Below are positions 2,403-20,483 of a stretch of 20,483 nucleotides of DNA, in pieces. The stretch lies in IMG/VR virus record IMGVR_UViG_3300006919_014578, positions 1 to 20,483 of that record; one strand, written 5' to 3'. The notes below the pieces were generated by a model. It was not told the origin of the DNA, searched no databases, and saw nothing but the letters and a program-made list of their open reading frames with translations. Numbering within the stretch: the stretch's first letter is position 1; each line of letters opens with the position of its first letter. This DNA is from a virus. Both the position numbers and the translations under genes were made by a program.

Positions 2403-2937
2403 ACAATTAGAATTATTTAGCAAAGCCGACGTGCCCTTTGTTAATGAAGTAGAAATTTTTAATCGCACGTTCGGAAAACCAAATGAATATGAACCAACAA
2501 TACCAGAAGAAAAGGAGTGGAAATTCGTATACGACTTTGTACTTGAAGAATTGGAAGAATATAGACAGGCTTGCGAAAACGGAGACATCGTGGAAGTTTT
2601 GGATGCTTTGTGCGATATTGCTTATGTTTCCCTTGGGAACGGTGTTATGCTACACGGCCTTAAGGATAAGATATGGCCAGCGTATCAAGAAGTACAAGCA
2701 AGCAATATGTCAAAGTCTTGTAGCACTGAAGAAGAAGCCATGGAGACTGTCACCCTCCGCTCTAAAGAACAAAATGAGCCATGTCACTATGAGAGGGTGG
2801 AGGAAAGATTTGTAGTATATAGAACTCGAGATAGAAAAGTAATGAAGTCTATAAATTATTTTAGACCTGATTTACATCAATTTTTTACTGGAGATGAAAT
2901 CCAAAAAACAAAACCCCAACAACACGTAGGAATTTAA
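2395..2937 (+). CDS. MazG-like nucleotide pyrophosphohydrolase
   Basis: A 180-residue member of the all-alpha NTP pyrophosphohydrolase (MazG/PRA-PH) superfamily, which hydrolyses NTPs or dNTPs to NMPs and pyrophosphate. The metal-binding pattern is present: EELEE at 51-55, then ExxDxxxD at Glu67, Asp70 and Asp74, with a later conserved-type Asn104 in SNMSK. The region after residue 110 is a less conserved tail (FRPDLHQFF) of unknown role. Base composition is odd: 2461-2820 counts to about 42% GC against roughly 27-30% nearby, and it uses codons that are rare elsewhere in the window. The gene starts 8 bases inside the phosphoribosyltransferase gene and ends with TAATG, coupled to the polymerase. 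Confidence 0.8.
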   Translation: MGKQLELFSKADVPFVNEVEIFNRTFGKPNEYEPTIPEEKEWKFVYDFVLEELEEYRQACENGDIVEVLDALCDIAYVSLGNGVMLHGLKDKIWPAYQEVQASNMSKSCSTEEEAMETVTLRSKEQNEPCHYERVEERFVVYRTRDRKVMKSINYFRPDLHQFFTGDEIQKTKPQQHVGI

Positions 2938-4745
2938 TGTATAAAAAGTGTTATATAGGGGATAAAGAAGGTCCTAATCTTTTTAATATGCACTATTGGG
3001 AATCTGATGGTAAGCTTAAAACCGAACTTTGGGAAAATATTGCTTATATAGAAGATGAAAGAGGTGAATATAAAGGACTTAATGGAGAAAAATTAGTTCC
3101 CACAGGGGATTGGTATTTTTCTAAAAATGAAAAATTTAGACATAAAAATACCCCTGGTTTACATTTCTATGATATGCAATTACATCAAAAATTTCTTATT
3201 GAAAAATATGGAACTAATGATGAACCCTCTGTAAACCATAAAGAACTATTTTTTGATATTGAGTGCGAAATTGGAGGAGCATTAACTGAAGATTATATTG
3301 AGGATGCTCCTATGCCTATTACTTCAATAGCATTTTGGTATAAACAACAAGATGTATGGGGGTGTTTAATTTTAGATCCTAAAGGACAAGTAGAAAAAAT
3401 TGTTCCTAATTCACCTAATTTTGAAGGAAAAATCATTTTGCCTTTTAGAACAGAAGAAGGACTATTAAAATATTGGGTTAGAAACATTATCCAAAAAATA
3501 GAACCAGATATATTAATAGGATACAATAGTGACTTTTTTGATATTCCTTACTTATATTATAGAATTTGGAACGTGTGTGGTATAGATGAAGCAAATTCTA
3601 TGTCCCCTTTATATGATGTTTTTCAAAAAGAAGAACCTGTATCGTCTAGAAGATACAATAAACTTAGAGAAATGAGTTGGTGGAAAGATACTTGGGTTCA
3701 GATTAAAGGAATTGAATCTTTAGATTATATGCGTTTGCATAAAAAATATAGTTGGAAAGATGAACCAAGTTGGAAATTAGATGCTATTGGGGAAAAATAT
3801 GCAGGCGTAAATAAGATTGAATATGATGGAAATCTAAATCAATTATATGAAACTGATATTAATAAATTTGTAGAATATAACTTCCGTGATGTTGAAATAC
3901 TTAAATTACTAGATGAAAAGCTTCAGTATATTGCTTTAACTAAGAACCTATCCCATAAAGGAAAACATAATTATAGTGAAGTTTATCATAATAGTGTTAC
4001 ACAAGATGGAGCTATTTCTGCCTATTTATTAGGACAAGGAATAATTCCTTCTAATAAAGAAATTAATCCTAAAAAGAAAAAAGGGTATGCTGGTGGTTAT
4101 TTATTTTGCCCTCAAGCAGGATTATACAAATATATGTTTGATGAAGATTTAACTTCTCTATACCCTTCTATTATTATGACTCTTAATATAGGCAAAGAAA
4201 CTTATGTTGGTAGAGTACTTACTTTTAAATTCGATGAATTAGGAAGAGAAATAGTTGATGATAGAAATAATAGACTAGGGCTTAATGATTTAAAAGCTAG
4301 AGATCCTAAATCAAAAATAGTATTTGAAGACCTTAATGGTAATTGGGAAAAATGGGAAGTTGGAAAAATAGTCAAAGCAATTGAGACAGGGAAATATACT
4401 GTTTCAGCAAATGGTTCTTTCTTCTCAACCCAATCCCAATCTACTCTATCAGCTATTTTAGCAAAATGGTTTCAAGAAAGAGTTGATTACAAAAATAAAA
4501 TGAAATCCGCTTATAAAGCTGGAAATAAAGAAAAAGGGGAATATTATCATTTAATGCAATATACTATGAAAATTCTTCTTAATAGTTTGTATGGTGCTAC
4601 TGCCTTACCTAATTTTAGGTATGGTATGAATCATGCTATTTTAAGTGAAGCCATTACTTTAAGTGGACACAGAATCATCCAGGAATCAGCTTTATGTGTT
4701 AATAAACATATGAATAAAGTACTAAAAGGGGAATTAACATTATGA
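2937..4745 (+). CDS. 43A: DNA polymerase (gp43-type), N-terminal fragment: exonuclease, motifs A and B
   Basis: The first 602 residues of a T4 gp43-like family B replicative DNA polymerase. The 3'-5' exonuclease motifs are complete: FDIE with Asp107 and Glu109, YNSDFFDIPY with Asp202, and YNFRD with Tyr314 and Asp318. Polymerase motif A is DLTSLYPS at 404-411, with Asp404 as a catalytic metal ligand; motif B is KILLNSLYG at 545-553. The frame then stops after EALNKH-like helix residues (CVNKHMNKVLKGELTL), where T4 gp43 continues towards motif C. The missing part is encoded at 5110-6066. The two pieces sum to 920 residues, close to T4 gp43 (898). The stop overlaps the next start as ATGA (4742-4745). 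It should need the C-terminal piece to be active. Confidence 0.93.
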   Translation: MYKKCYIGDKEGPNLFNMHYWESDGKLKTELWENIAYIEDERGEYKGLNGEKLVPTGDWYFSKNEKFRHKNTPGLHFYDMQLHQKFLIEKYGTNDEPSVNHKELFFDIECEIGGALTEDYIEDAPMPITSIAFWYKQQDVWGCLILDPKGQVEKIVPNSPNFEGKIILPFRTEEGLLKYWVRNIIQKIEPDILIGYNSDFFDIPYLYYRIWNVCGIDEANSMSPLYDVFQKEEPVSSRRYNKLREMSWWKDTWVQIKGIESLDYMRLHKKYSWKDEPSWKLDAIGEKYAGVNKIEYDGNLNQLYETDINKFVEYNFRDVEILKLLDEKLQYIALTKNLSHKGKHNYSEVYHNSVTQDGAISAYLLGQGIIPSNKEINPKKKKGYAGGYLFCPQAGLYKYMFDEDLTSLYPSIIMTLNIGKETYVGRVLTFKFDELGREIVDDRNNRLGLNDLKARDPKSKIVFEDLNGNWEKWEVGKIVKAIETGKYTVSANGSFFSTQSQSTLSAILAKWFQERVDYKNKMKSAYKAGNKEKGEYYHLMQYTMKILLNSLYGATALPNFRYGMNHAILSEAITLSGHRIIQESALCVNKHMNKVLKGELTL

Positions 4746-5113
4746 CTTTAATTAAAATTTCAAATGGTGAATTATTAGATAGAATTTCTATTATAGAGTT
4801 AAAAAAACTTAATATGGAAAACCCTGCTAATTTAGCTTCAATAGAAAGGGAATTTTTAGAATTAAACCCTAAGTGTGTTGATCTATTTACAAAAAATGAT
4901 CATTCTGTTAAGGTACTTTATTTGTCTTTAGCTAAAATTAATAGTACATTATGGGAATTAGAAAATAAAGTTAGAGATAAAAACATAAGCGATAAGGATT
5001 TTGTTATGTATTCTAAACAAATATTTAAATTAAACGAAAAAAGAAATAAAATAAAAAATGACATTAATATAATTACAGGTAGTGATTATTTAGATGTTAA
5101 AGAATATTCATGA
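4742..5113 (+). CDS. DUF6165-like protein lying between the two polymerase cistrons
   Basis: A 123-residue protein separating the two polymerase genes. I recognise the pattern of DUF6165: SNGELLDRISIIELKK near the N-terminus, a mid helix with IEREFLEL, then INSTLWELENKVRD and LNEKRNKIKNDIN. It should be mostly alpha-helical. The family's function is unknown to me; from memory, relatives often lie near surface-polysaccharide genes in bacteria and phages. I see no homing-endonuclease motif (LAGLIDADG, GIY-YIG, HNH). It is joined at both ends by ATGA overlaps (4742-4745 and 5110-5113), so it reads as an independent, translationally coupled cistron, not an intein or intron. Family confidence is moderate. 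Confidence 0.7.
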   Translation: MTLIKISNGELLDRISIIELKKLNMENPANLASIEREFLELNPKCVDLFTKNDHSVKVLYLSLAKINSTLWELENKVRDKNISDKDFVMYSKQIFKLNEKRNKIKNDINIITGSDYLDVKEYS

Positions 5114-6066
5114 AGTACTTACAAGAAACACCTTGGTTTATTTGCAATGATGGGGATCAGAACTTCTGTGCTTATGTAGATACTGACTCTAACTATTTCA
5201 ACGCTGAACCTATATTATTACATAAATATCCTGATTTTGAATCCTTCCCAGATGAGAAAAAAGATGAATTATTAGAAGATATAGCTCTTAAATATCAAGA
5301 TATTATTACTGATTTTTATAGTGAGTTAGCTATAGATTGTTTTAATGTAGAACAATTTAAATGGTTTGATAAACCCCATTGGTTAGAAATGAAAACCGAA
5401 TGTGTTATTCGTTCTGCTTATTTTAGAAATACTAGACGTTACGCTCAATGGATAACAAAACAAGAAGGTATAGTTAAAGAAACTTTAGATATTAAAGGAT
5501 TAGAATTTATGAAAACAAATTTTCCTAAAACTTTAGGGGATTTTTTCCATAATATTTTAGTTCAAACTCTAAAAGGAGCAACACACACAGAAATTTTAGA
5601 CCAAATTAAAGAATTTAAAGAGAAAATATTATCAGGAGAAATACCTTTAGCAGAACTAGGTAATCCAACTTCTGTTAAAAAATTAGATAAATATTCAGGT
5701 AGAAAACCCAGAGCAGGAGAAATGTTTACTGAAATAGAAAAAGGATGTCCTGCACCTGTTAGGGCAGCTATTAAATATAATGATTTACTTACCTTTTGGG
5801 GGTTAGATAAAGAATATAATTTAATTACTGCTTATGATAAAGTAAAATGGACTTATTTAAAAGATAATCCTTATAAAATAGAAGCATTAGCATTTTTAGA
5901 TTATGAAATGCCTTCTAAAATTGAAGAATTTTTTAATCAATATGCAGATAGAAAAAAAATATTTGATAGTATTTTATTAAATAAATTAGAAGGATTTTTT
6001 AGTGATATTGGTTGGAGTCTTGATACAAATCCTTATGTTAATGCGTTTAAAATGTTAGAAGTATGA
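5110..6066 (+). CDS. 43B: DNA polymerase (gp43-type), C-terminal fragment: motif C, palm end and thumb
   Basis: The 318-residue C-terminal piece of the split family B polymerase. Motif C appears almost at once as YVDTDS at 22-27, whose Asp24 and Asp26 complete the metal site begun by Asp404 on the other polypeptide. The KKRY-like DNA-contact segment follows (AYFRNTRRYAQ, 103-113), then KGLEFMKTNFPK at 129-140, matching the palm/thumb junction of T4 gp43. The C-terminal end should carry the sliding-clamp contact. The short lead MKYLQETPWFICNDGDQNF replaces a stretch T4 reads straight through, so the ATG probably arose at the break. The gene is coupled by ATGA overlaps to both neighbours. It has no expected activity alone. 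Confidence 0.92.
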   Translation: MKYLQETPWFICNDGDQNFCAYVDTDSNYFNAEPILLHKYPDFESFPDEKKDELLEDIALKYQDIITDFYSELAIDCFNVEQFKWFDKPHWLEMKTECVIRSAYFRNTRRYAQWITKQEGIVKETLDIKGLEFMKTNFPKTLGDFFHNILVQTLKGATHTEILDQIKEFKEKILSGEIPLAELGNPTSVKKLDKYSGRKPRAGEMFTEIEKGCPAPVRAAIKYNDLLTFWGLDKEYNLITAYDKVKWTYLKDNPYKIEALAFLDYEMPSKIEEFFNQYADRKKIFDSILLNKLEGFFSDIGWSLDTNPYVNAFKMLEV

Positions 6067-6944
6067 GAGACTTTTGGAAAACCACTAAGTGGCCAACTTT
6101 AGAATTTACTACATCTATATCACCAAAAGGATGTATTGTGAATTGTGCTTTTTGTCCTCAAAGAACTTTGGAAAAAATATACCATGCTTTAGAGGGTCAA
6201 CCTAAGCAATTATCAATTGATGATTTTATTACTATAGTTAATAAGGTTCCTGAAGAAGTTAGAATTACCTTTTCTGGATTTACTGAACCTTGGTTAAATC
6301 AAAATTGTACTAGTATGGCGGAATATGCTCATCATAAAGGTCATCCTGTATCTGCGTTTTCAACAGGAATTGGAATGACTTTAGATGATGTAGAACGAGT
6401 TAAAAATATACCTTGGACTAAAGGACCAAATGGAGGTTTTTGTCTACATATTCCTGATACTGAAAGAATAGCAGAACACCCTATTTCAGATAAATTAAGA
6501 AAAGTATATGAAAGGTTTAAAGAATTAGAAAATGAAATTCAGGGATTTTATGTAATGTCAATGGGAGAAGCTCATGAAATAGCTTCTGATTTGTGGCCAA
6601 ATCCTGTTATACCAAATTTTTGGAATAGAGCAGGAAATTTAGTAGGAGAAGCTACTATTAAACCGGCATTAGAAAAAGTAATGGATAGAGTACAACATGC
6701 TGAAATAAAAGGACCTAGTACTTGTGGGTGTATCGAGCATTTATACCATAATGTAGTTTTACCTAATGGTGATGTTTCTATATGCTGTATGGACTATAGT
6801 TTAGAAAAAATACTTGGAAACCTACTAGAAAGTTCGTATGATGATATAATGCCAGCTCCATTGTCTACATTTGATATTTGTAGCAGGTGTGAAAATGGAG
6901 TTAGTCCAAGTTCAATTATAAAAAGGAAAAAAATAGTTATATGA
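6063..6944 (+). CDS. Radical SAM protein with SPASM-like auxiliary cysteines
   Basis: A 293-residue radical SAM enzyme. The 4Fe-4S/AdoMet site is Cys24, Cys28 and Cys31 in GCIVNCAFCPQ, followed by a partial-barrel pattern (EVRITFSGFTEPWLN, where GFTEP replaces GGEP). A second cysteine set near the C-terminus, Cys221, Cys223, Cys241, Cys242, Cys273 and Cys276, surrounds LPNGDVSICCMDY and ILGNL. That arrangement is typical of SPASM/Twitch auxiliary clusters found in peptide-modifying enzymes and anaerobic sulfatase maturases. The substrate is unknown and no precursor peptide is evident next to it. It sits between the polymerase C-terminal gene and the sliding clamp, with ATGA overlaps on both sides, so it should be expressed with the replisome. 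Confidence 0.85.
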   Translation: MRDFWKTTKWPTLEFTTSISPKGCIVNCAFCPQRTLEKIYHALEGQPKQLSIDDFITIVNKVPEEVRITFSGFTEPWLNQNCTSMAEYAHHKGHPVSAFSTGIGMTLDDVERVKNIPWTKGPNGGFCLHIPDTERIAEHPISDKLRKVYERFKELENEIQGFYVMSMGEAHEIASDLWPNPVIPNFWNRAGNLVGEATIKPALEKVMDRVQHAEIKGPSTCGCIEHLYHNVVLPNGDVSICCMDYSLEKILGNLLESSYDDIMPAPLSTFDICSRCENGVSPSSIIKRKKIVI

Positions 6945-7680: not shown

Positions 7681-8334
7681 ATGACTTATTATAATGATAC
7701 AACTCCCAATGAAGACGGAGGAATTATAACTACCGATAAATTTAAAGTAAATCCTGATGCTAAAAAAAGAATTTGGGTGGCTGAAAATTTTTATGAAAAC
7801 ATTGATGAAGTAAGAAATTATGCCCTTCAACAATGGTATTTTGATGATGAAGGTTATGAAGGTTTAAGAACAAGGAAACAATTTGTTTTCGATGGAACTA
7901 AAGAAAAGTTTGAAAGTATAATGGGTAAAAAAATTACTCGATTTGCCGACTATTATGGAATGTGTGGTAGGTTCCAATCTAATAAAGCAGATATGAGACC
8001 TGTTTGGCACTGTGATAGTCAAGAATATGCCGCAGTTATCTACTTAACCCCAGATGCTCCTGTTGAAGCTGGTACTGGATTTTATCAGCATAAAGCTACA
8101 AAATTAAGAGGTGGAGAACCTAATATTGGAGAAGCATTTAATGGTGAAACTTGGGTAGATGGTACCCCTTACCAACAAGTAGATTTTGTAGGTAATGTTT
8201 ATAATAGAATAGTTATATGGGATGCAAAATTAATTCATGCTGCTCCAATTTACTTTGGGTGGGATATTAATTCATCTCGATTGTTTCATATATTTTTCTT
8301 TGATTCTGAAGATGCCCTCTACCCCGGAGAATAA
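7681..8334 (+). CDS. 2OG-Fe(II) oxygenase-like protein, DUF6445 type
   Basis: A 217-residue protein with a clear HxD...H...R pattern: His110 and Asp112 in VWHCDSQEYAAVIYLTP, His186 in LIHAAPIYFGWD, and Arg200 in SSRLFHIFFFD. This is the iron and 2-oxoglutarate site of the double-stranded beta-helix oxygenases. The length and the ENFYENIDEVRNYAL start suit the DUF6445-like group seen in marine T4-like phages. It is not a recent duplicate of the oxygenase at 664-1281: motifs, spacing and flanking sequence differ. The substrate is unknown. The leader AATTAAAAAAC just before ATG 7681 is A-rich without a Shine-Dalgarno site, as in Bacteroidetes. The 3' end overlaps the DUF2452-like gene. Confidence 0.8.
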   Translation: MTYYNDTTPNEDGGIITTDKFKVNPDAKKRIWVAENFYENIDEVRNYALQQWYFDDEGYEGLRTRKQFVFDGTKEKFESIMGKKITRFADYYGMCGRFQSNKADMRPVWHCDSQEYAAVIYLTPDAPVEAGTGFYQHKATKLRGGEPNIGEAFNGETWVDGTPYQQVDFVGNVYNRIVIWDAKLIHAAPIYFGWDINSSRLFHIFFFDSEDALYPGE

Positions 8335-9684: not shown

Positions 9685-9700
9685 ATATATGTATAATAAA
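9685..9700 (+). repeat. 16-base AT-rich motif, copy 1
   Basis: ATATATGTATAATAAA occurs here, in the 120-base spacer after metK, and again exactly at 16079-16094, in the short spacer before the ribbon-helix-helix gene. These are two of the few real gene-free gaps in the window, which favours a role in transcription. TATAAT-like content suggests a promoter -10 region, perhaps for a phage-modified polymerase, but no paired upstream element is clear. Confidence 0.5.
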
Positions 9701-15102: not shown

Positions 15103-16071
15103 TTGGCTAGAAAAATCCCTAAAATAGTAAGGGAGATTAGAAATAATCCCCCCCAGGAGGTAAATTATGCCTATCAAAAGAATATTTCTTATTCTCAAAT
15201 GTCTTTATTCAGACAGTGTCCTCATAGATGGAAACTACAATATAAAGATAAAATAAAGGTATTTACTTCCTCAATTCATACTGTATTTGGGACCGCTATA
15301 CATGAAGTATTACAACATTACTTAGATGTAATGTTTGAAACTAGTGCCGCTAAGGCTGATGAATTAAATTTAGAAAATCTGTTTCAAGAAAAATTTATTG
15401 GTGAATACCAAAACCAATACAAGAAAAACAATAATGAACATTTCTCTTCCGCCGAGGAAATGAGGGAATTTTTTGAAGATGGGGTAGGTATTTTAAATTG
15501 GTTTAGAAAAAAAAGAAGTAGATATTTTTCAAGACGAGGATGGCATTTGATAGGTTGTGAGATACCTATAGTTATTTCACCCAATAAAATGTATAATAAC
15601 ATAAAATATACTGGGTTTTTAGATGTTGTATTATATGATGAAAAATATGATACCTTTAAAATTATCGATATCAAAACCAGTACTAAGGGATGGAATAAAA
15701 AAGACAAAGAAAATGAAGATAAACAATTTCAATTACTTTTATATAAACAGTTCTTTAGTGAACAATATGGTATTCCTTTAAGTAATATTGATATTGAATT
15801 TTTTATTGTTAAAAGAAAAGTGTTAGATTGGGATGATGAAAGAATTATGTCACCCCATCAAGCATATAGAGTACAAACATTCACCCCACCTAGCGGAAAA
15901 ATTAAATTAGGAAGAGCGATAAAGGCTATAAATAATTTTATTAATGAATGTTTTAATTCAACAGGGGACATCAAAGAAATAGACTACCCCAAATCAGTTT
16001 CTAAATGGAATTGTATGTTTTGTCCTTTTAAAGATGACAAAGAAAAATGTGGAGAAGGTATAATATACTAA
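15103..16071 (+). CDS. PD-(D/E)XK (RecB/Cas4-like) nuclease with probable Fe-S cluster
   Basis: A 322-residue nuclease. Motifs: Tyr-Ser-Gln...CPHRW near 30-43, GTAIHEVL with His67, YTGFLDVVLYD with Asp174, FKIIDIKT with Asp189 and Lys191, and the QxxxY helix Gln210-Tyr214. Together these form the RecB-family metal site. Cys39 plus Cys304, Cys307 and Cys316 (NCMFCPFKDDKEKCG) are laid out like the 4Fe-4S cluster of Cas4 and AddB nucleases. It would degrade or process DNA ends in recombination, replication or packaging. The start is TTG at 15103, 3 bases after the DUF1599 stop; the first ATG (residue 33) would remove most of the motif around Cys39. No CRISPR array is present. Confidence 0.87.
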   Translation: MARKIPKIVREIRNNPPQEVNYAYQKNISYSQMSLFRQCPHRWKLQYKDKIKVFTSSIHTVFGTAIHEVLQHYLDVMFETSAAKADELNLENLFQEKFIGEYQNQYKKNNNEHFSSAEEMREFFEDGVGILNWFRKKRSRYFSRRGWHLIGCEIPIVISPNKMYNNIKYTGFLDVVLYDEKYDTFKIIDIKTSTKGWNKKDKENEDKQFQLLLYKQFFSEQYGIPLSNIDIEFFIVKRKVLDWDDERIMSPHQAYRVQTFTPPSGKIKLGRAIKAINNFINECFNSTGDIKEIDYPKSVSKWNCMFCPFKDDKEKCGEGIIY

Positions 16072-16078
16072 TATCCCC

Positions 16079-16094
16079 ATATATGTATAATAAA
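16079..16094 (+). repeat. 16-base AT-rich motif, copy 2; promoter-like
   Basis: ATATATGTATAATAAA, identical to 9685-9700. It lies in the 43-base gap between the nuclease and the ribbon-helix-helix gene, 20 bases before ATG 16115. As one of the few gaps in a tightly packed strand, the spot is a good candidate for a promoter that begins the glycosyltransferase segment. No TAnnTTTG match is present here. Confidence 0.5.
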
Positions 16095-16114
16095 CGTTAT
16101 TAAAAATAAAAATT

Positions 16115-16303
16115 ATGGCAAATAGTAAAGACATGACACTAACCAGTGTAAAAGTTCAAAGCAATTTGTTTGAAAATTTCAAGGTAGAATGCGTTAGAAG
16201 AAAGTTTTCTTTCCAAAAGCTTGCTGATCGAGCAATTTATTTGTATCTTACTGATGAAAATTTTAGAAAACAAATTACCAATCAAACAAATATTGAACTG
16301 TAA
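16115..16303 (+). CDS. Small ribbon-helix-helix-like protein
   Basis: A 62-residue protein with the layout of a MetJ/Arc-type ribbon-helix-helix DNA-binding protein. A short beta strand (LTSVKVQ, 9-15) is followed by a first helix (LFENFKVECVRRKF) and a second (FQKLADRAIYLYLTDENFRKQI). Such proteins bind DNA as dimers through the paired strands and often act as repressors. Close relatives occur in marine T4-like phages by my recollection, with no known role. It follows the 16-base promoter-like motif and leads the glycosyltransferase segment, so it could regulate that block. It may instead be a small structural or accessory protein. Confidence 0.75.
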   Translation: MANSKDMTLTSVKVQSNLFENFKVECVRRKFSFQKLADRAIYLYLTDENFRKQITNQTNIEL

Positions 16304-16315
16304 ATTTTAAATTAG

Positions 16316-17767
16316 ATGAATAAAAGTTTTAAGTATTTACCTCCTGAAAAAAGGAAAAAAATCCTATTAGTTTGTGATGATATTAGAGTTCATTCTGGAG
16401 TTGCTACTGTAGCAAAAGAAATTGTACTCCATACTTGTCACCACTTTAATTGGGTTAATGTAGCAGGGGCAATTAAACATCCTGAGGCAGGAAAACGATT
16501 AGATATTAGTCCTGATACACAAAAATTTACAGGAGTAGAAGATGCAAAAGTTTTTCTTTATTGTGTTAATGGATATGGTACTACCCAAGAAATCCATAAT
16601 ATATTCAACATGGAAAAACCAGATGCTATTATGTTGATTACAGATCCAAGATATTTTCAACATATATTTAATATGGAGGATCAATTAAGAAAATTAGCTC
16701 CTATTACTTATCTAAACATTTGGGATGATTATCCTGCACCAAGATACAATCAACCTTTTTATGAAGCTTGTGATTTATTAATGGGGATTTCTAAACAAAC
16801 CGTTAATATTAATAAGTTAGTTTTAGAAGATTGTGACAATTCAAAAAGGGTATTTAAATACATCCCCCATGGATTAAATCATAAAGAATATTTTCCTATT
16901 AATAAAGAACATGAACAATACCCTGAACTTTTAGAATTTAAGAATAAAATCTTACAGGGTAAAGAAACTGAATTTGTAATGTTTTTTAATTCTAGAAATA
17001 TTAGAAGAAAACAAATCCCAGATGCTATGATGGCTTTTAGGGCATTTTTAGATTCTTTACCTTATGAAAAAGCCTTAAAATGTAGATTTCTATTACATAC
17101 TGAAATATCTTCAGAACATGGTACAGATTTAACTAAAGTTCAAGAGTATTTATTTGGAGAAAAATATAATGATTGTATTATATTCTCTACTGGTAAAGTA
17201 GATAGAAAACAACTTAATTTCCTATATAATATAGCTGATGTTCAAATATTATTAACTTCAAATGAAGGTTGGGGATTAACAATTACTGAAGCTATTTTAG
17301 CAGGTACTCCTATTATTGCTAATGTAACAGGGGGGATGCAGGATCAAATGAGATTTGTTGATGATAAAGGTAAATGGTTTGAACCAGATGCTAATATTCC
17401 TTCTAACCATAGAGGTACTTTTAAAGAACATGGTGAATGGGCTTTCCCAGTTTATCCTACTTCAAGATCAATTCAAGGTTCTCCTCCAACTCCTTATATC
17501 TATGATGATAGATGTACTTGGGAAGATGCTTGTGATAGAATAAAAGAAGTTTATAATTTAAGTCGTGAAGAAAGAAAAGCAAGAGGATTAAAAGGTAGAG
17601 AATGGGCTTTATCTGATGAAGCTGGATTCACAGCTGAACATCAAGGAAAAAGAGTAATTGAAGCTTTTGAGGAATTATTTAATGTTTGGGAACCAAGAGA
17701 AAGATATGAACTTATTAATGCTACAAAATCAAAAGGTAAGTTTTTAAACCATAAAATAATATATTAA
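16316..17767 (+). CDS. Glycosyltransferase, GT4-like (GT-B fold), first copy
   Basis: A 483-residue glycosyltransferase of the GT-B type. The N-terminal domain begins with KKILLVCDDIRVHSGVATVAKEIV, a Rossmann start with the glycine-rich acceptor loop. The C-terminal domain carries FFNSRNIRRKQIPDAMMAF (GT4 R/K donor site), then the EX7E motif Glu317-Glu325 in EGWGLTITEAILAGTP. It would transfer a sugar from a nucleotide donor; the acceptor is unknown. Candidates are phage DNA, virion proteins or host surface glycans. The next gene is a distinct GT4 protein, joined by a TAATG overlap. No signal peptide or membrane helix is seen, so it should be cytoplasmic. Confidence 0.9.
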   Translation: MNKSFKYLPPEKRKKILLVCDDIRVHSGVATVAKEIVLHTCHHFNWVNVAGAIKHPEAGKRLDISPDTQKFTGVEDAKVFLYCVNGYGTTQEIHNIFNMEKPDAIMLITDPRYFQHIFNMEDQLRKLAPITYLNIWDDYPAPRYNQPFYEACDLLMGISKQTVNINKLVLEDCDNSKRVFKYIPHGLNHKEYFPINKEHEQYPELLEFKNKILQGKETEFVMFFNSRNIRRKQIPDAMMAFRAFLDSLPYEKALKCRFLLHTEISSEHGTDLTKVQEYLFGEKYNDCIIFSTGKVDRKQLNFLYNIADVQILLTSNEGWGLTITEAILAGTPIIANVTGGMQDQMRFVDDKGKWFEPDANIPSNHRGTFKEHGEWAFPVYPTSRSIQGSPPTPYIYDDRCTWEDACDRIKEVYNLSREERKARGLKGREWALSDEAGFTAEHQGKRVIEAFEELFNVWEPRERYELINATKSKGKFLNHKIIY

Positions 17768-19038
17768 TGAATAAACCAGTTTTTGTAATAAGTTGTCCAT
17801 TTGACACATATAGTGGTTATGGTGCTAGAGCACGAGATATAGCTAAAGCTATAATTGAATTAGATAAATATGATGTTAAATTGCTTCCTCAAAGATGGGG
17901 GGATACACCTGGGGGGTTTTGTAATGATCATGATGAATGGAAATTTCTCCACAAACATACCATTCCTAATTTACAAAATAAACCAGATATTTGGATGCAA
18001 ATTACAATACCAAGTGAATTTCAACCTGTAGGAAAATATAATATAGGTTGTACTGCGGGTATTGAAAGTACAGGATGTGATGTATCTTGGATTGAAGGGC
18101 TCAATAGAATGAATATGAATTGGACTTCATCCAAACATAGTAAACAAGTTTTTGAAAGTTTAAAATTTGAGCAAAGAGATAATAACAAACAAATAGTAGG
18201 TACTATTAAATCAGAAAAACCTTTGCATGTAGTATTTGAAGGAGTTAATTTAGATGTTTATAAACATTTACCTAATAAAAATGAAATTAGTTTAGATTTA
18301 TCTTCAATTGAGGAACAATTTTGTTTTTTATTTGTAGGACATTGGATGCAAGGTAAACTTGGTCATGATAGAAAAAATGTTGGCCTAATGATTAGATACT
18401 TTTTTGATGCATTTAAAAATAAACCAAACCCCCCTGCTTTAATATTAAAAGCTTCTCTTGGACGAAACAGTTATATAAGTAGAGAAGAAATTTTAAATAG
18501 AATTAGAGCTATTAAATCTACATATAAAGATGCAAAATTACCTAATGTTTATTTATTAAATGGAGGTTTAAGTGATGCAGAAATGAATGAATTATATAAC
18601 CACCCAAAAGTAAAGGCAATGATTTCATTTACTAAAGGTGAAGGTTATGGAAGACCCTTAGCTGAATTCTGTCTATCTAAAAAACCAATAGCTGTATCAG
18701 GATGGTCAGGACATATTGATTTTATTAGTAATGAATTTTCTTTATGGGTCCCTGGTAGTTTGGAAAATATAGATGATAGTTCTGCTAACCAATGGTTAAA
18801 AAAAGAATTCCAATGGTTCCAGGTTAGTACAAAACATGCAGTTAATACTTTTAAAACACTTAAAGCAAAATACCCAAAGTTTTTAACTGGAGCTAAAAGA
18901 CAGGCACATAAAATAAAAACTGAATTTAGTTATGATGCTATGAAAGAATTAGTAGGGAATATTTTAAATGCTAATATACCTGAATTTCCTAAACAAGTAG
19001 AATTAACATTACCAACAATGGAAACTCCTAAATTATGA
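17767..19038 (+). CDS. Glycosyltransferase, GT4-like, second copy
   Basis: A 423-residue glycosyltransferase, GT-B fold. It opens with VFVISCPFDTYSGYGARARDIAKAI, has GHWMQGKLGHDRKNVGLMIRYFFDAF as the start of the donor domain, and TKGEGYGRPLAEFCLSKKP with EX7E at Glu292 and Glu300. It is not a close duplicate of the upstream enzyme: the N-terminal sequence, length and spacing differ, so the two probably act on different sugars or in sequence. The C-terminal tail after about residue 400 (PKQVELTLPTMETPKL) is likely flexible. It ends with an ATGA overlap to the next gene. The acceptor is unknown. Confidence 0.88.
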   Translation: MNKPVFVISCPFDTYSGYGARARDIAKAIIELDKYDVKLLPQRWGDTPGGFCNDHDEWKFLHKHTIPNLQNKPDIWMQITIPSEFQPVGKYNIGCTAGIESTGCDVSWIEGLNRMNMNWTSSKHSKQVFESLKFEQRDNNKQIVGTIKSEKPLHVVFEGVNLDVYKHLPNKNEISLDLSSIEEQFCFLFVGHWMQGKLGHDRKNVGLMIRYFFDAFKNKPNPPALILKASLGRNSYISREEILNRIRAIKSTYKDAKLPNVYLLNGGLSDAEMNELYNHPKVKAMISFTKGEGYGRPLAEFCLSKKPIAVSGWSGHIDFISNEFSLWVPGSLENIDDSSANQWLKKEFQWFQVSTKHAVNTFKTLKAKYPKFLTGAKRQAHKIKTEFSYDAMKELVGNILNANIPEFPKQVELTLPTMETPKL

Positions 19039-19481
19039 TACAACAATATGATGAAATTATAAATTGTCCTAAATCAGGTGGAGACTTATGTTATAAAATA
19101 GAAGTTAACCCCGAAATAACTAATTATTTTAGTTTATCATGTGGGTTTTGGACTAATAGTTTAATGAAAGTAGGAACAGATTTTTATAATGAACAATGGG
19201 CATTATTACCTGAGCTTTATAAAGATATAGCTTGGTTAGATCCTAAAACAGAACTTATTTGGTTACCTAATACAATAAATATCCCTGATAAAGGGATGGT
19301 GTTTGCTGAAGGAGTAACTGCTGAAGATTGGAGATGGGCTGCAACTAAAGCAGTTGAACTAAGCCCGGAAGAACAGAAAAAACATGGGGTTCAATATAAA
19401 GCTGATATGAAAACAATTGCTCATTTCCCAGAAAGACAATACATGGATGCTTTATCATATATTGGAATTTTACCTGAATAG
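19035..19481 (+). CDS. Unknown protein inside the glycosyltransferase segment
   Basis: A 148-residue protein I cannot assign to a family. It starts MIQQYDEIINCPKSGGDLCYKIEVNPEITNYF, then LSCGFWTNSLMKVGTDF, then repeated aromatic/proline segments (LPELYKDIAWLDPKTELIWLPNTINIP) and a helical C-terminus (AEDWRWAATKAVELSPEEQKKHG). Cysteines at 11, 19 and 36 are too spread for an evident zinc finger. The WLP and WDP-like motifs suggest a beta-rich core. It is coupled by ATGA to the second GT4 gene and lies 2 bases before the GT2 gene, so it belongs to the same pathway by position only. Confidence 0.75.
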   Translation: MIQQYDEIINCPKSGGDLCYKIEVNPEITNYFSLSCGFWTNSLMKVGTDFYNEQWALLPELYKDIAWLDPKTELIWLPNTINIPDKGMVFAEGVTAEDWRWAATKAVELSPEEQKKHGVQYKADMKTIAHFPERQYMDALSYIGILPE

Positions 19482-19483
19482 AT

Positions 19484-20107
19484 ATGAAAATAAGTTATGC
19501 TATAACAGTTTGTAATGAATTAGAAGAAGTAACTAAATTAGTTAATTTTTTAATTGAAAATAGACGTTTAGAAGATGAAATAGTAATTCTATTTGATAAA
19601 GGTAAAGGAACAGCTGAAGTATGGTATCGTTTACAAGAATTAAATGATGAACCAAATATAGTATTAAAACAAGATACATTTAAACATCATTTTGCTGATT
19701 GGAAAAATCAATTAACATCTTACTGTTCAGGTGATTATATATTCCAAATAGATGCAGATGAAATACCTCATGATATTTTAATTGAGCAATTACCTACTAT
19801 ACTAGAGTCTAACCCAGATAATGAAGTTTATTTAACACCAAGAGTTAATACAGTGTCTGGTTTAACTAAAGAACATATTACAAAATGGAGATGGAATGTT
19901 GATGAACAAGATAGAGTTAATTGGCCTGATTATCAATGGCGTATTTGGAAAAACAAACCAGAAATTAAATGGGTAAATAAAGTTCATGAAAAGTTAGAAG
20001 GATTTAAAACATATGCCCTATTACCTGCTTTACCTGAATTAGCTTTATATCATCCTAAAACAATAGACAGACAAGTTAAACAAAATGAATATTATAACAC
20101 ATTATGA
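19484..20107 (+). CDS. Glycosyltransferase family 2-like (GT-A fold)
   Basis: A 207-residue GT-A glycosyltransferase. It begins with ISYAITVCNELEEVTKLVNFLI, the GT2 strand-loop-helix start. The metal-binding DxD is Asp90-Ala-Asp92-Glu93 in YIFQIDADEIPHD, and a WRIWKN...WVNKVHEKLEG segment resembles the C-terminal acceptor part of GT2 enzymes such as the WaaE-like group. It has no transmembrane helix, so it is cytoplasmic. It is the third glycosyltransferase in a row and is coupled by ATGA to a methyltransferase gene. Together they suggest building of a methylated glycan. Confidence 0.88.
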   Translation: MKISYAITVCNELEEVTKLVNFLIENRRLEDEIVILFDKGKGTAEVWYRLQELNDEPNIVLKQDTFKHHFADWKNQLTSYCSGDYIFQIDADEIPHDILIEQLPTILESNPDNEVYLTPRVNTVSGLTKEHITKWRWNVDEQDRVNWPDYQWRIWKNKPEIKWVNKVHEKLEGFKTYALLPALPELALYHPKTIDRQVKQNEYYNTL

Positions 20108-20483
20108 GGACATTACAAGAAATATATGAAGACCATTCAGATGCAAGTGGAGTAGGACATGGTGATAAAGGAACAGTTCATTCTTATATTGAAACTTATG
20201 ATAAGTTATTAACTCCTTATAGAGATAAAAATATTAATTTTTTAGAAATAGGTATTGCCTATGGAGAATCTTTAGAATTATGGTATAAGTATTTTAATAA
20301 TGCTAAAATACATGGAGCGGATATTCATGATGTAGAAATATTTAGTGATAAAGTTAAACCAGGAGGGTATAAAGATGATGAACGTTTTACTATATGGATT
20401 GAAAATGCTACTGAACCTAAATTTTTAGATGTTATAGGAGATATTAAATTTGATATTATTATTGATGATGGTTCTCATAGAAT
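20104..20483 (+). CDS. Class I SAM-dependent methyltransferase, N-terminal part
   Basis: An open frame cut by the window end after 126 codons. It shows the Rossmann AdoMet site: FLEIGIAYGESLELW at 47-60 (motif I), an acidic end of beta2 at Asp73 (GADIHD), and FDIIIDDGSHR at 116-126, a motif of the sugar O-methyltransferase group (MycE/TylF-like) where the acidic pair and His can hold a metal. The N-terminus EDHSDASGVGHGDKGTVHSYIETYDKLL also fits that group. Position after GT genes suggests methylation of a sugar. Start is the ATG of an ATGA overlap with the GT2 gene. The rest lies outside the window. Confidence 0.78.
   Translation, partial: MRTLQEIYEDHSDASGVGHGDKGTVHSYIETYDKLLTPYRDKNINFLEIGIAYGESLELWYKYFNNAKIHGADIHDVEIFSDKVKPGGYKDDERFTIWIENATEPKFLDVIGDIKFDIIIDDGSHR

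Follow-up and report, generated by a model that had tools for sequence, protein, structure and literature searches.

Phage glycosyltransferases are usually taken to modify DNA or the host surface, and a virus in which several of them follow one another raises the question of what these enzymes build together and on which molecule they build it. We asked this of the window, by which we mean the whole stretch of DNA analysed here (positions 1 to 20,483 of IMG/VR virus record IMGVR_UViG_3300006919_014578; 20,483 bases), which carries T4-like replication genes and chaperonins and ends in a block of six genes that includes three glycosyltransferase genes (GT4a, GT4b and GT2) and a gene for a protein of 148 amino acids (aa), P148. 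In related loci, this core keeps its order while the genes behind it can be replaced. We tentatively propose, with somewhat less than even confidence, that the block is part of a glycotype island of widespread aquatic Bacteroidota phages, composed of a fixed core and of cassettes exchanged wholesale, some of them making sialic-acid-like sugars, so that close relatives would show different virion sugar coats, switched by recombination like O-serotypes.

The transferase core and its enzymes

The block runs on one strand from 16115 to the window end, with overlaps of at most 4 nucleotides (nt) and gaps of at most 12 nt. Together with its left flank, it comprises the following features.

15103-16071, plus strand: PD-(D/E)XK nuclease, the conserved left flank of the island (Pfam PF12705, 1.1e-21)
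16079-16089, plus strand: ATATATGTATA motif, a candidate promoter element or operator that lies 25 nt ahead of the first start codon
16115-16303, plus strand: 62-aa protein (open reading frame, ORF), RHH-like by pattern only
16316-17767, plus strand: GT4a, 483 aa, GT-B-type glycosyltransferase (Pfam, PHROG and profile match)
17767-19038, plus strand: GT4b, 423 aa, GT-B glycosyltransferase (PHROG, AlphaFold2 model)
19035-19481, plus strand: P148, 148 aa, with a zinc-ribbon-like N-terminus and a small beta-rich C-terminal part (alignment, model)
19484-20107, plus strand: GT2, 207 aa, with a DAD motif (Pfam, profile match)
20104-20483, plus strand: predicted sugar O-methyltransferase, cut by the window end (ORF 20104-20481, open; PHROG, profile match)

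The initial annotation had described a coupled block of at least six genes, which is borne out by the spacing of the ORFs and by the recurrence of the same order in 151 loci and in the cultured phage vB_FspM_immuto (hereafter, immuto). The 62-aa gene and GT4a are separated by 12 nt, GT4a and GT4b overlap by 1 nt and GT4b and P148 by 4 nt, P148 and GT2 are separated by 2 nt, and GT2 overlaps the methyltransferase gene by 4 nt; ahead of the block lies a 43-nt gap (16072-16114) that contains ATATATGTATA at 16079.

Relatives were picked by similarity to P148 or GT4b, the GT4b set being the best 80 of at least 599, which gave 152 loci that include the window twice (L001 and L002), three loci nearly identical to it (L003, L004 and L082) and several contigs fetched twice. 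Searches with the window proteins (tblastn) located GT4b in 151 of these loci, GT4a and P148 in 150 each, and the nuclease and the 62-aa protein in 149 and 148, respectively; for GT2 the count is 126, lowered by the many contigs that end before this gene. In the 151 loci that carry two or more of the genes for nuclease, 62-aa protein, GT4a, GT4b, P148 and GT2, those present always follow one another in this order and on the same strand, and the arrangement holds down to P148 identities in the 40s of per cent; L001, a piece of the window itself, is counted here, as are near-copies and contigs retrieved a second time. The spacing is similarly tight: among 98 loci with all five genes complete, where some contigs are counted twice, the four junctions have gaps of no more than 60 nt in 96, 95, 93 and 85 loci, respectively. 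P148 and GT2 lie more than 300 nt apart in 11 loci, and L072 and L081 have small extra ORFs between them. Over 20 loci, the mean divergence of the core proteins is 33-40%, compared with 37% for the clamp loader and 42% for the nuclease, which probably stands outside the sugar pathway; judged by these protein comparisons, the transferase core has diverged about as much as a replication gene has.

Two GT4 enzymes, one GT2 with a DxD motif and a TylF/MycE-like methyltransferase had been annotated, and these assignments agree with the Pfam, PHROG, profile and model matches, by which the methyltransferase is of the TylE/MycE type. GT4a matches Pfam Glycos_transf_1 (PF00534, 7.9e-10) and a PHROG family (2.2e-18), and its profile matches the solved structure 3oy2 (2.3e-10). 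GT4b matches a PHROG glycosyltransferase family (4.2e-16) and no Pfam family up to an E-value of 0.1; its AlphaFold2 model (pLDDT 91.7) is that of a GT-B enzyme, with 3oy2 as the best solved chain in VIA (Z 31.5, root-mean-square deviation 3.1 over 352 residues) and a Foldseek match to the same structure at 3.0e-17. The GT-B fold is therefore read from the model for GT4b and from the Pfam and profile matches alone for GT4a. The E-x7-E motif typical of the GT4 family is present in all 146 complete GT4a and all 148 complete GT4b sequences of the loci (near-duplicate rows included), and it is invariant as E317-x7-E325 in 30 alignment rows of GT4a and as E292-x7-E300 in 37 rows of GT4b. GT2 matches Pfam Glycos_transf_2 (PF00535, 8.3e-11), has DADE in 110 of 110 sequences (again counting near-duplicate rows) and is 70.5% identical in immuto. 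The methyltransferase piece in the window matches a PHROG family (5.9e-15), the demethylmacrocin O-methyltransferase 8ia9 (4.4e-8) and 3ssm (3.4e-5); the enzyme is complete in L003 and L004 (190 aa), and as a whole it matches 8ia9 at 2.4e-13 and 3ssm at 1.1e-10 over residues 23-152. We take these two structures to be the sugar-hydroxyl methyltransferases TylE and MycE, and the enzyme is, as a predicted activity, a relative of these sugar O-methyltransferases.

P148 is the least familiar member of the core. Two cysteines, C11 and C36, are invariant in 53 alignment rows, and 18 of the 135 complete relatives have two CxxCG motifs, so that the protein looks like a zinc ribbon that has lost two ligands in most members, the one in the window included. 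Used as a tblastn query, the four-cysteine form found immuto alone among phage records. A model of P148 (pLDDT 89.7, pTM 0.65; two of five models only) had a single match in a viral-structure search, an uncharacterised phage protein at 1.4e-14, while 1 of 53 family members matched an unnamed PHROG at 0.0024. No solved sequence relative was found (best E 0.7), and a Foldseek search of the model against the PDB gave nothing at E <= 0.001. A PC4-like role in transcription is possible, and the matches are too weak to claim it (PC4 as the best Foldseek match at 0.38; Z at most 4.0 in VIA, to a PC4 homologue over residues 79-148). The initial annotation had suggested that P148 is a scaffold or the acceptor. 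In loci fetched through P148 alone, GT4b is found in 79 of 79, GT4a in 78 of 79 and GT2 in 68 of 79, and because a GT4b homologue is present in every one of them, P148 would be a dedicated partner of the transferases. Its cysteine pattern seems to fit an adaptor better than an acceptor; our guess is that P148 is a dedicated adaptor.

Cassettes downstream of the core

The window ends within the methyltransferase gene, and the initial annotation had advised reading on for more sugar enzymes. These are indeed present in L004, which is 98-100% identical to the window protein by protein over the block genes and adds a 265-aa GT2 enzyme, a further protein of 229 aa that is GT2-like (Pfam, 1.2e-5) and an epimerase truncated where the contig ends. 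In loci of the same type, such as L089 and L092, there follow a UDP-glucose/GDP-mannose dehydrogenase and two right-flank genes, one of them weakly DksA-like. The three transferases, the relative of sugar O-methyltransferases and these downstream sugar genes together support the annotated product, a methylated oligosaccharide.

Behind the same core, the content of the cassettes varies widely. The 79 loci with at least 2.5 kb after P148 were de-duplicated to 59 by their shared k-mers, and the ORFs of these, predicted with a simple script, were grouped by single linkage into clusters named from one or two scanned members. GT2 is present in 58 of these loci, an epimerase/dehydratase cluster in 47, other GT2-type enzymes in 43, the family of the 229-aa protein in 32, UDP-glucose/GDP-mannose dehydrogenases in 25 and DegT aminotransferases in 21, followed by a long tail of rarer genes; a non-sugar gene, a DNA ligase cluster, occurs in 7. 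The mean Jaccard index of gene content over the 6 kb after P148 is 0.157 (48 loci), and the kilobases after GT2 hold 126 gene clusters, some of them non-sugar, in 49 loci; 83 of the clusters were seen in one locus only.

Replacement is most evident in pairs of loci with similar cores. In a comparison of 71 loci, with near-identical pairs set aside, 12 pairs among 10 loci have 84.9-92.9% DNA identity over the 2.7 kb ending at GT4b, and only 0-18% of the 5 kb after GT2 can be aligned. Because these pairs share little or no alignable DNA behind so similar a core, whole sugar cassettes appear to be exchanged between phages, as in bacterial O-antigen loci. On the left side, where as much as 5 kb preceding the 62-aa gene was compared, 1.5-4.3 kb still aligns at 77-94%, homology being partly lost in some pairs and never wholly; on the right, it returns in the one readable pair, L140/L141 (1015 of 1262 bases, at 81%).

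One relative of the window, L077, encodes what is, by its profile scores, most of a pathway for nonulosonic (sialic-acid-like) acid. NeuB, NeuC and NeuD score 483, 335 and 184 bits, all above the NCBIfam cut-offs of 399.65, 235.9 and 160.8; a LegC-like aminotransferase (406.8) and a PseB-like dehydratase (268) fall under theirs (420 and 407.75), and the cytidylyltransferase match is weak. L077, L081 and L072 each combine a NeuB homologue with proteins of the cytidylyltransferase and dehydratase clusters, and L028 has a protein of the NeuB cluster. The genes of nonulosonic-acid type behind the same core span L077:6127-15321, L081:10772-16991 and L072:6091-14225.

Candidate acceptors of the sugars

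The reading that we favour, to which we give an even chance, is that the island encodes a soluble pathway that glycosylates virion proteins of the phage. GT2 would attach the first sugar in the host cytoplasm, the likely site being a side chain in one of the structural proteins of the phage; GT4a and GT4b would extend it, the methyltransferase would cap or decorate a sugar hydroxyl, and enzymes of the downstream cassette would make and add further sugars, with P148 as a putative zinc-ribbon adaptor uniting transferases and acceptor. With the core kept while the cassette is exchanged, related virions would carry different sugar coats, and the benefit may lie in masking against binding, antibodies or grazers, or in the tuning of adsorption.

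The initial annotation had named the virion, DNA and the host surface as possible destinations, and the evidence leans to a protein acceptor and least to DNA. A protein is favoured because the best solved match of the GT2 profile, over the whole length of the protein, is GmaR (whole-sequence E 9.4e-10, best domain 1.2e-7, residues 3-202), whose glycosyltransferase domain puts N-acetylglucosamine on flagellin, as described in the available part of PMC9638930; the next solved match is SunS, at 1.9e-6. No known membrane export gene was found in the records searched: the flippase family PF01943 and the polyprenyl-phosphate transferase family PF02397 occur in none of 34 records, most of them fragments and several near-copies, Wzy not being among the searches (in 14 control genomes, the two families were found in 13 and 9, respectively). 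Likewise, a simple Kyte-Doolittle window gave no ORF with more than three hydrophobic segments among the 669 downstream ORFs.

Several points weigh against virion glycosylation. Sequence analysis identified no acceptor, GT2 is only remotely similar to GmaR, and its profile finds polysaccharide synthases as well (heparosan synthase B at 2e-5, chondroitin synthase at 2.6e-4). The fragmentary records limit what the missing export genes can tell, lipid carriers and flippases could come from the host, and the structural genes of immuto lie at least 20 kb from the island. As to the exchange of cassettes, 17 of 28 non-identical pairs with at least 85% core identity keep at least 20% of the cassette, so that exchange would be frequent and not universal. 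The likeness of GT4a and GT4b to the chlorovirus protein B736L (3oy2) might have marked them as capsid transferases, a candidate that was dropped: according to the part of PMC9614988 available, no acceptor is known for B736L and mannose is missing from the capsid glycan of NY-2A, and because T4 DNA glucosyltransferases also match B736L (Table 3 in the portion of PMC6024577 at hand), the match does not discriminate between acceptors.

If the sugars were placed on the host instead, the transferases would act on its lipopolysaccharide, capsule or glycolipid while the infection proceeds, which would keep other phages from co-infecting or hide the infected cell. We consider this unlikely on balance, at perhaps half the weight of virion glycosylation; it keeps that weight because the host can supply the carriers and because the authors of a pelagimyophage survey favour such a role for phage glycosyltransferase clusters (accessible part of PMC7029224). 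Over residues 2-86, the downstream 265-aa GT2 weakly resembles GtrB-like proteins of O-antigen conversion (4.9e-6, a partial match), the epimerases, dehydrogenases and aminotransferases resemble the content of O-antigen loci, some solved matches of the GT2 profile are polysaccharide synthases, and the block adjoins replication genes. Conversely, neither flippase nor polyprenyl-phosphate transferase nor polytopic protein was found in the records searched, a gap that host machinery could fill, and if the phages are lytic, there would be little time for surface remodelling.

Hypermodification of DNA, with sugars on hydroxymethylated or 7-deazaguanine bases, seems improbable to us. By annotation, immuto carries FolE, QueC, QueD, QueE, QueF and DpdA, the window has FolE, and 3oy2, the structure matched by GT4a and GT4b, is also a match for the T4 DNA glucosyltransferases (PMC6024577, as far as available). 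Against it, the thymidylate-synthase/hydroxymethylase family (PF00303) is found in only 4 of the 34 records, many of them fragments, immuto being one of the four, and it is absent from two 156-kb contigs and from the complete Microcystis phage Mel-JY01 (PP395634), all of which have the transferase core. Moreover, with aminotransferases, NeuB/NeuC and an O-methyltransferase, these sugar-nucleotide pathways are richer than any phage DNA glycosylation known to us. More doubtful still is that the acceptor is P148 itself or another small phage or host protein, for instance a glycosylated inhibitor or host regulator. P148 adjoins GT4b in all 79 loci found through it, and the solved relatives of GT2 modify single protein targets, GmaR as well as SunS, a prophage-derived peptide glycosyltransferase; nevertheless, the zinc-ribbon pattern argues against such a role, as do the alignment, which by eye has no Ser/Thr-rich stretch, and Mel-JY01, in which GT4a, GT4b and GT2 are kept and P148 was not found.

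Upstream motif, neighbouring genes and known systems

The initial annotation had placed an RHH-like protein and a promoter-like motif at the head of the block. The first label is unproven and has no profile support: no RHH model in Pfam matches the 62-aa protein of the window, RHH_10 (E 0.029) and ParG (E 0.039) each weakly match 1 of 27 relatives, no convincing match was found among solved structures (best E 0.061), and the sole feature in its favour is the strand-helix-helix look of the sequence. The motif fares better, as 132 of 137 loci have TAYNTATA in the 70 nt that precede the 62-aa gene. Considering gaps of at least 40 nt, it is present before the 62-aa gene in 122 of 124, compared with 31 of 357 other intergenic gaps, and with 16 of 124 and 25 of 357 after shuffling, counts that are inflated by the kinship of the loci; Gibbs sampling also returns the motif. 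The plus strand of the window has two copies of ATATATGTATA, one at 16079 and one at 9685; the latter (9685-9695), in a position kept in relatives, lies 90 nt before HSP20, which is followed by GroES and GroEL. Of 35 plus-strand sites ahead of other genes, 25 precede HSP20-like genes, assigned by eye from their N-termini, and some precede GIY-YIG-like genes. The idea that the motif is an operator of the 62-aa protein is weakened by these sites, which make a phage promoter element at least as likely. GIY-YIG-endonuclease-like genes (family by eye) with their own motif copy lie in or near the block at L059:3343, L074:9169 and L076:247 and 4805.

Elsewhere in the window, a family B DNA polymerase is split between ORFs 2937-4745 and 5110-6066, with a DUF6165/DUF4254-like ORF (4742-5113) between them; in Mel-JY01, both parts are in one coding sequence. 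A SPASM-domain radical SAM protein (6063-6944) adjoins the polymerase, and a 2OG-Fe(II) oxygenase and a DUF6445 protein lie at 664-1281 and 7681-8334, respectively. FolE, a GTP cyclohydrolase (1294-1989), follows a cut ORF (region 2-1989) that has no match in Pfam and is a QueE candidate by position and look; 7-deazaguanine modification of DNA is possible in the window virus, as in immuto. Its host is likely flavobacterial: among the four genome contigs that carry P148, binning had assigned two to Flavobacteriaceae/Flavobacteriales, one to a bacterium and one to a Woesearchaeote, and the host of immuto is Flavobacterium.

Phage sugar genes, virion glycosylation and variable phage islands are already known, as the available parts of PMC12619734 and PMC7029224 attest. 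In a partial literature search, we found no earlier account of a fixed GT4-GT4-P148-GT2 core with replaced cassettes, one of them with most of a nonulosonic pathway, nor any report of phage-encoded nonulosonic acid synthesis, including in the part of PMC7003362 available. If our proposal is correct, phages would have variable sugar coats of their own, much as bacteria have serotypes, which would bear on adsorption, grazing and the antibody recognition of phage particles and could be tested in the cultured immuto.

The closest known system is that of immuto (NC_055915, Immutovirus), a Flavobacterium phage in which a nuclease, a 60-aa protein, two glycosyltransferases, a 152-aa protein and a GT2 stand in the same order, with core proteins 42-71% identical to those of the window. 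Its own sugar cassette follows and is different, with DegT aminotransferases, a pilin glycosylation protein, a mannosyltransferase and an epimerase by annotation, and its DNA polymerase is of family A, in contrast to the split family B enzyme of the window. In Mel-JY01, a sugar cluster after a PD-(D/E)XK nuclease contains a GT4a-like enzyme (in two ORFs), a GT4b-like enzyme and a GT2, 37-43% identical to ours, with GuaB between nuclease and transferases; neither P148 nor the 62-aa protein was found there. Bacterial O-antigen and capsule loci likewise have conserved flanks around exchangeable genes for sugar synthesis and transfer, although flippase and lipid-carrier transferase were not found in our 34 records. 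Glycans have reportedly been seen by Freeman et al. in 2023, as cited in PMC12619734, on capsid and tail tube subunits of mycobacteriophages, which share the idea of virion glycans in unrelated hosts and phages; we know of no swappable nucleotide-sugar cassette in those systems. The Moraphages (Arch Virol 2025), likened here by description, are large phages of aquatic habitats whose predicted hosts are mostly Bacteroidota; they have variable islands and four core glycosyltransferase orthogroups, for which the available part of PMC12619734 lists only possible roles and gives neither gene order nor cassette exchange. In the pelagimyophage clusters, too, the sugar genes belong to a region that is hypervariable among aquatic T4-like phages; however, as far as PMC7029224 is available, they are mostly GT8 and lie partly within the host-recognition (tail-fibre) region, whereas the island described here has a fixed GT4-GT4-P148-GT2 core beside replication genes.

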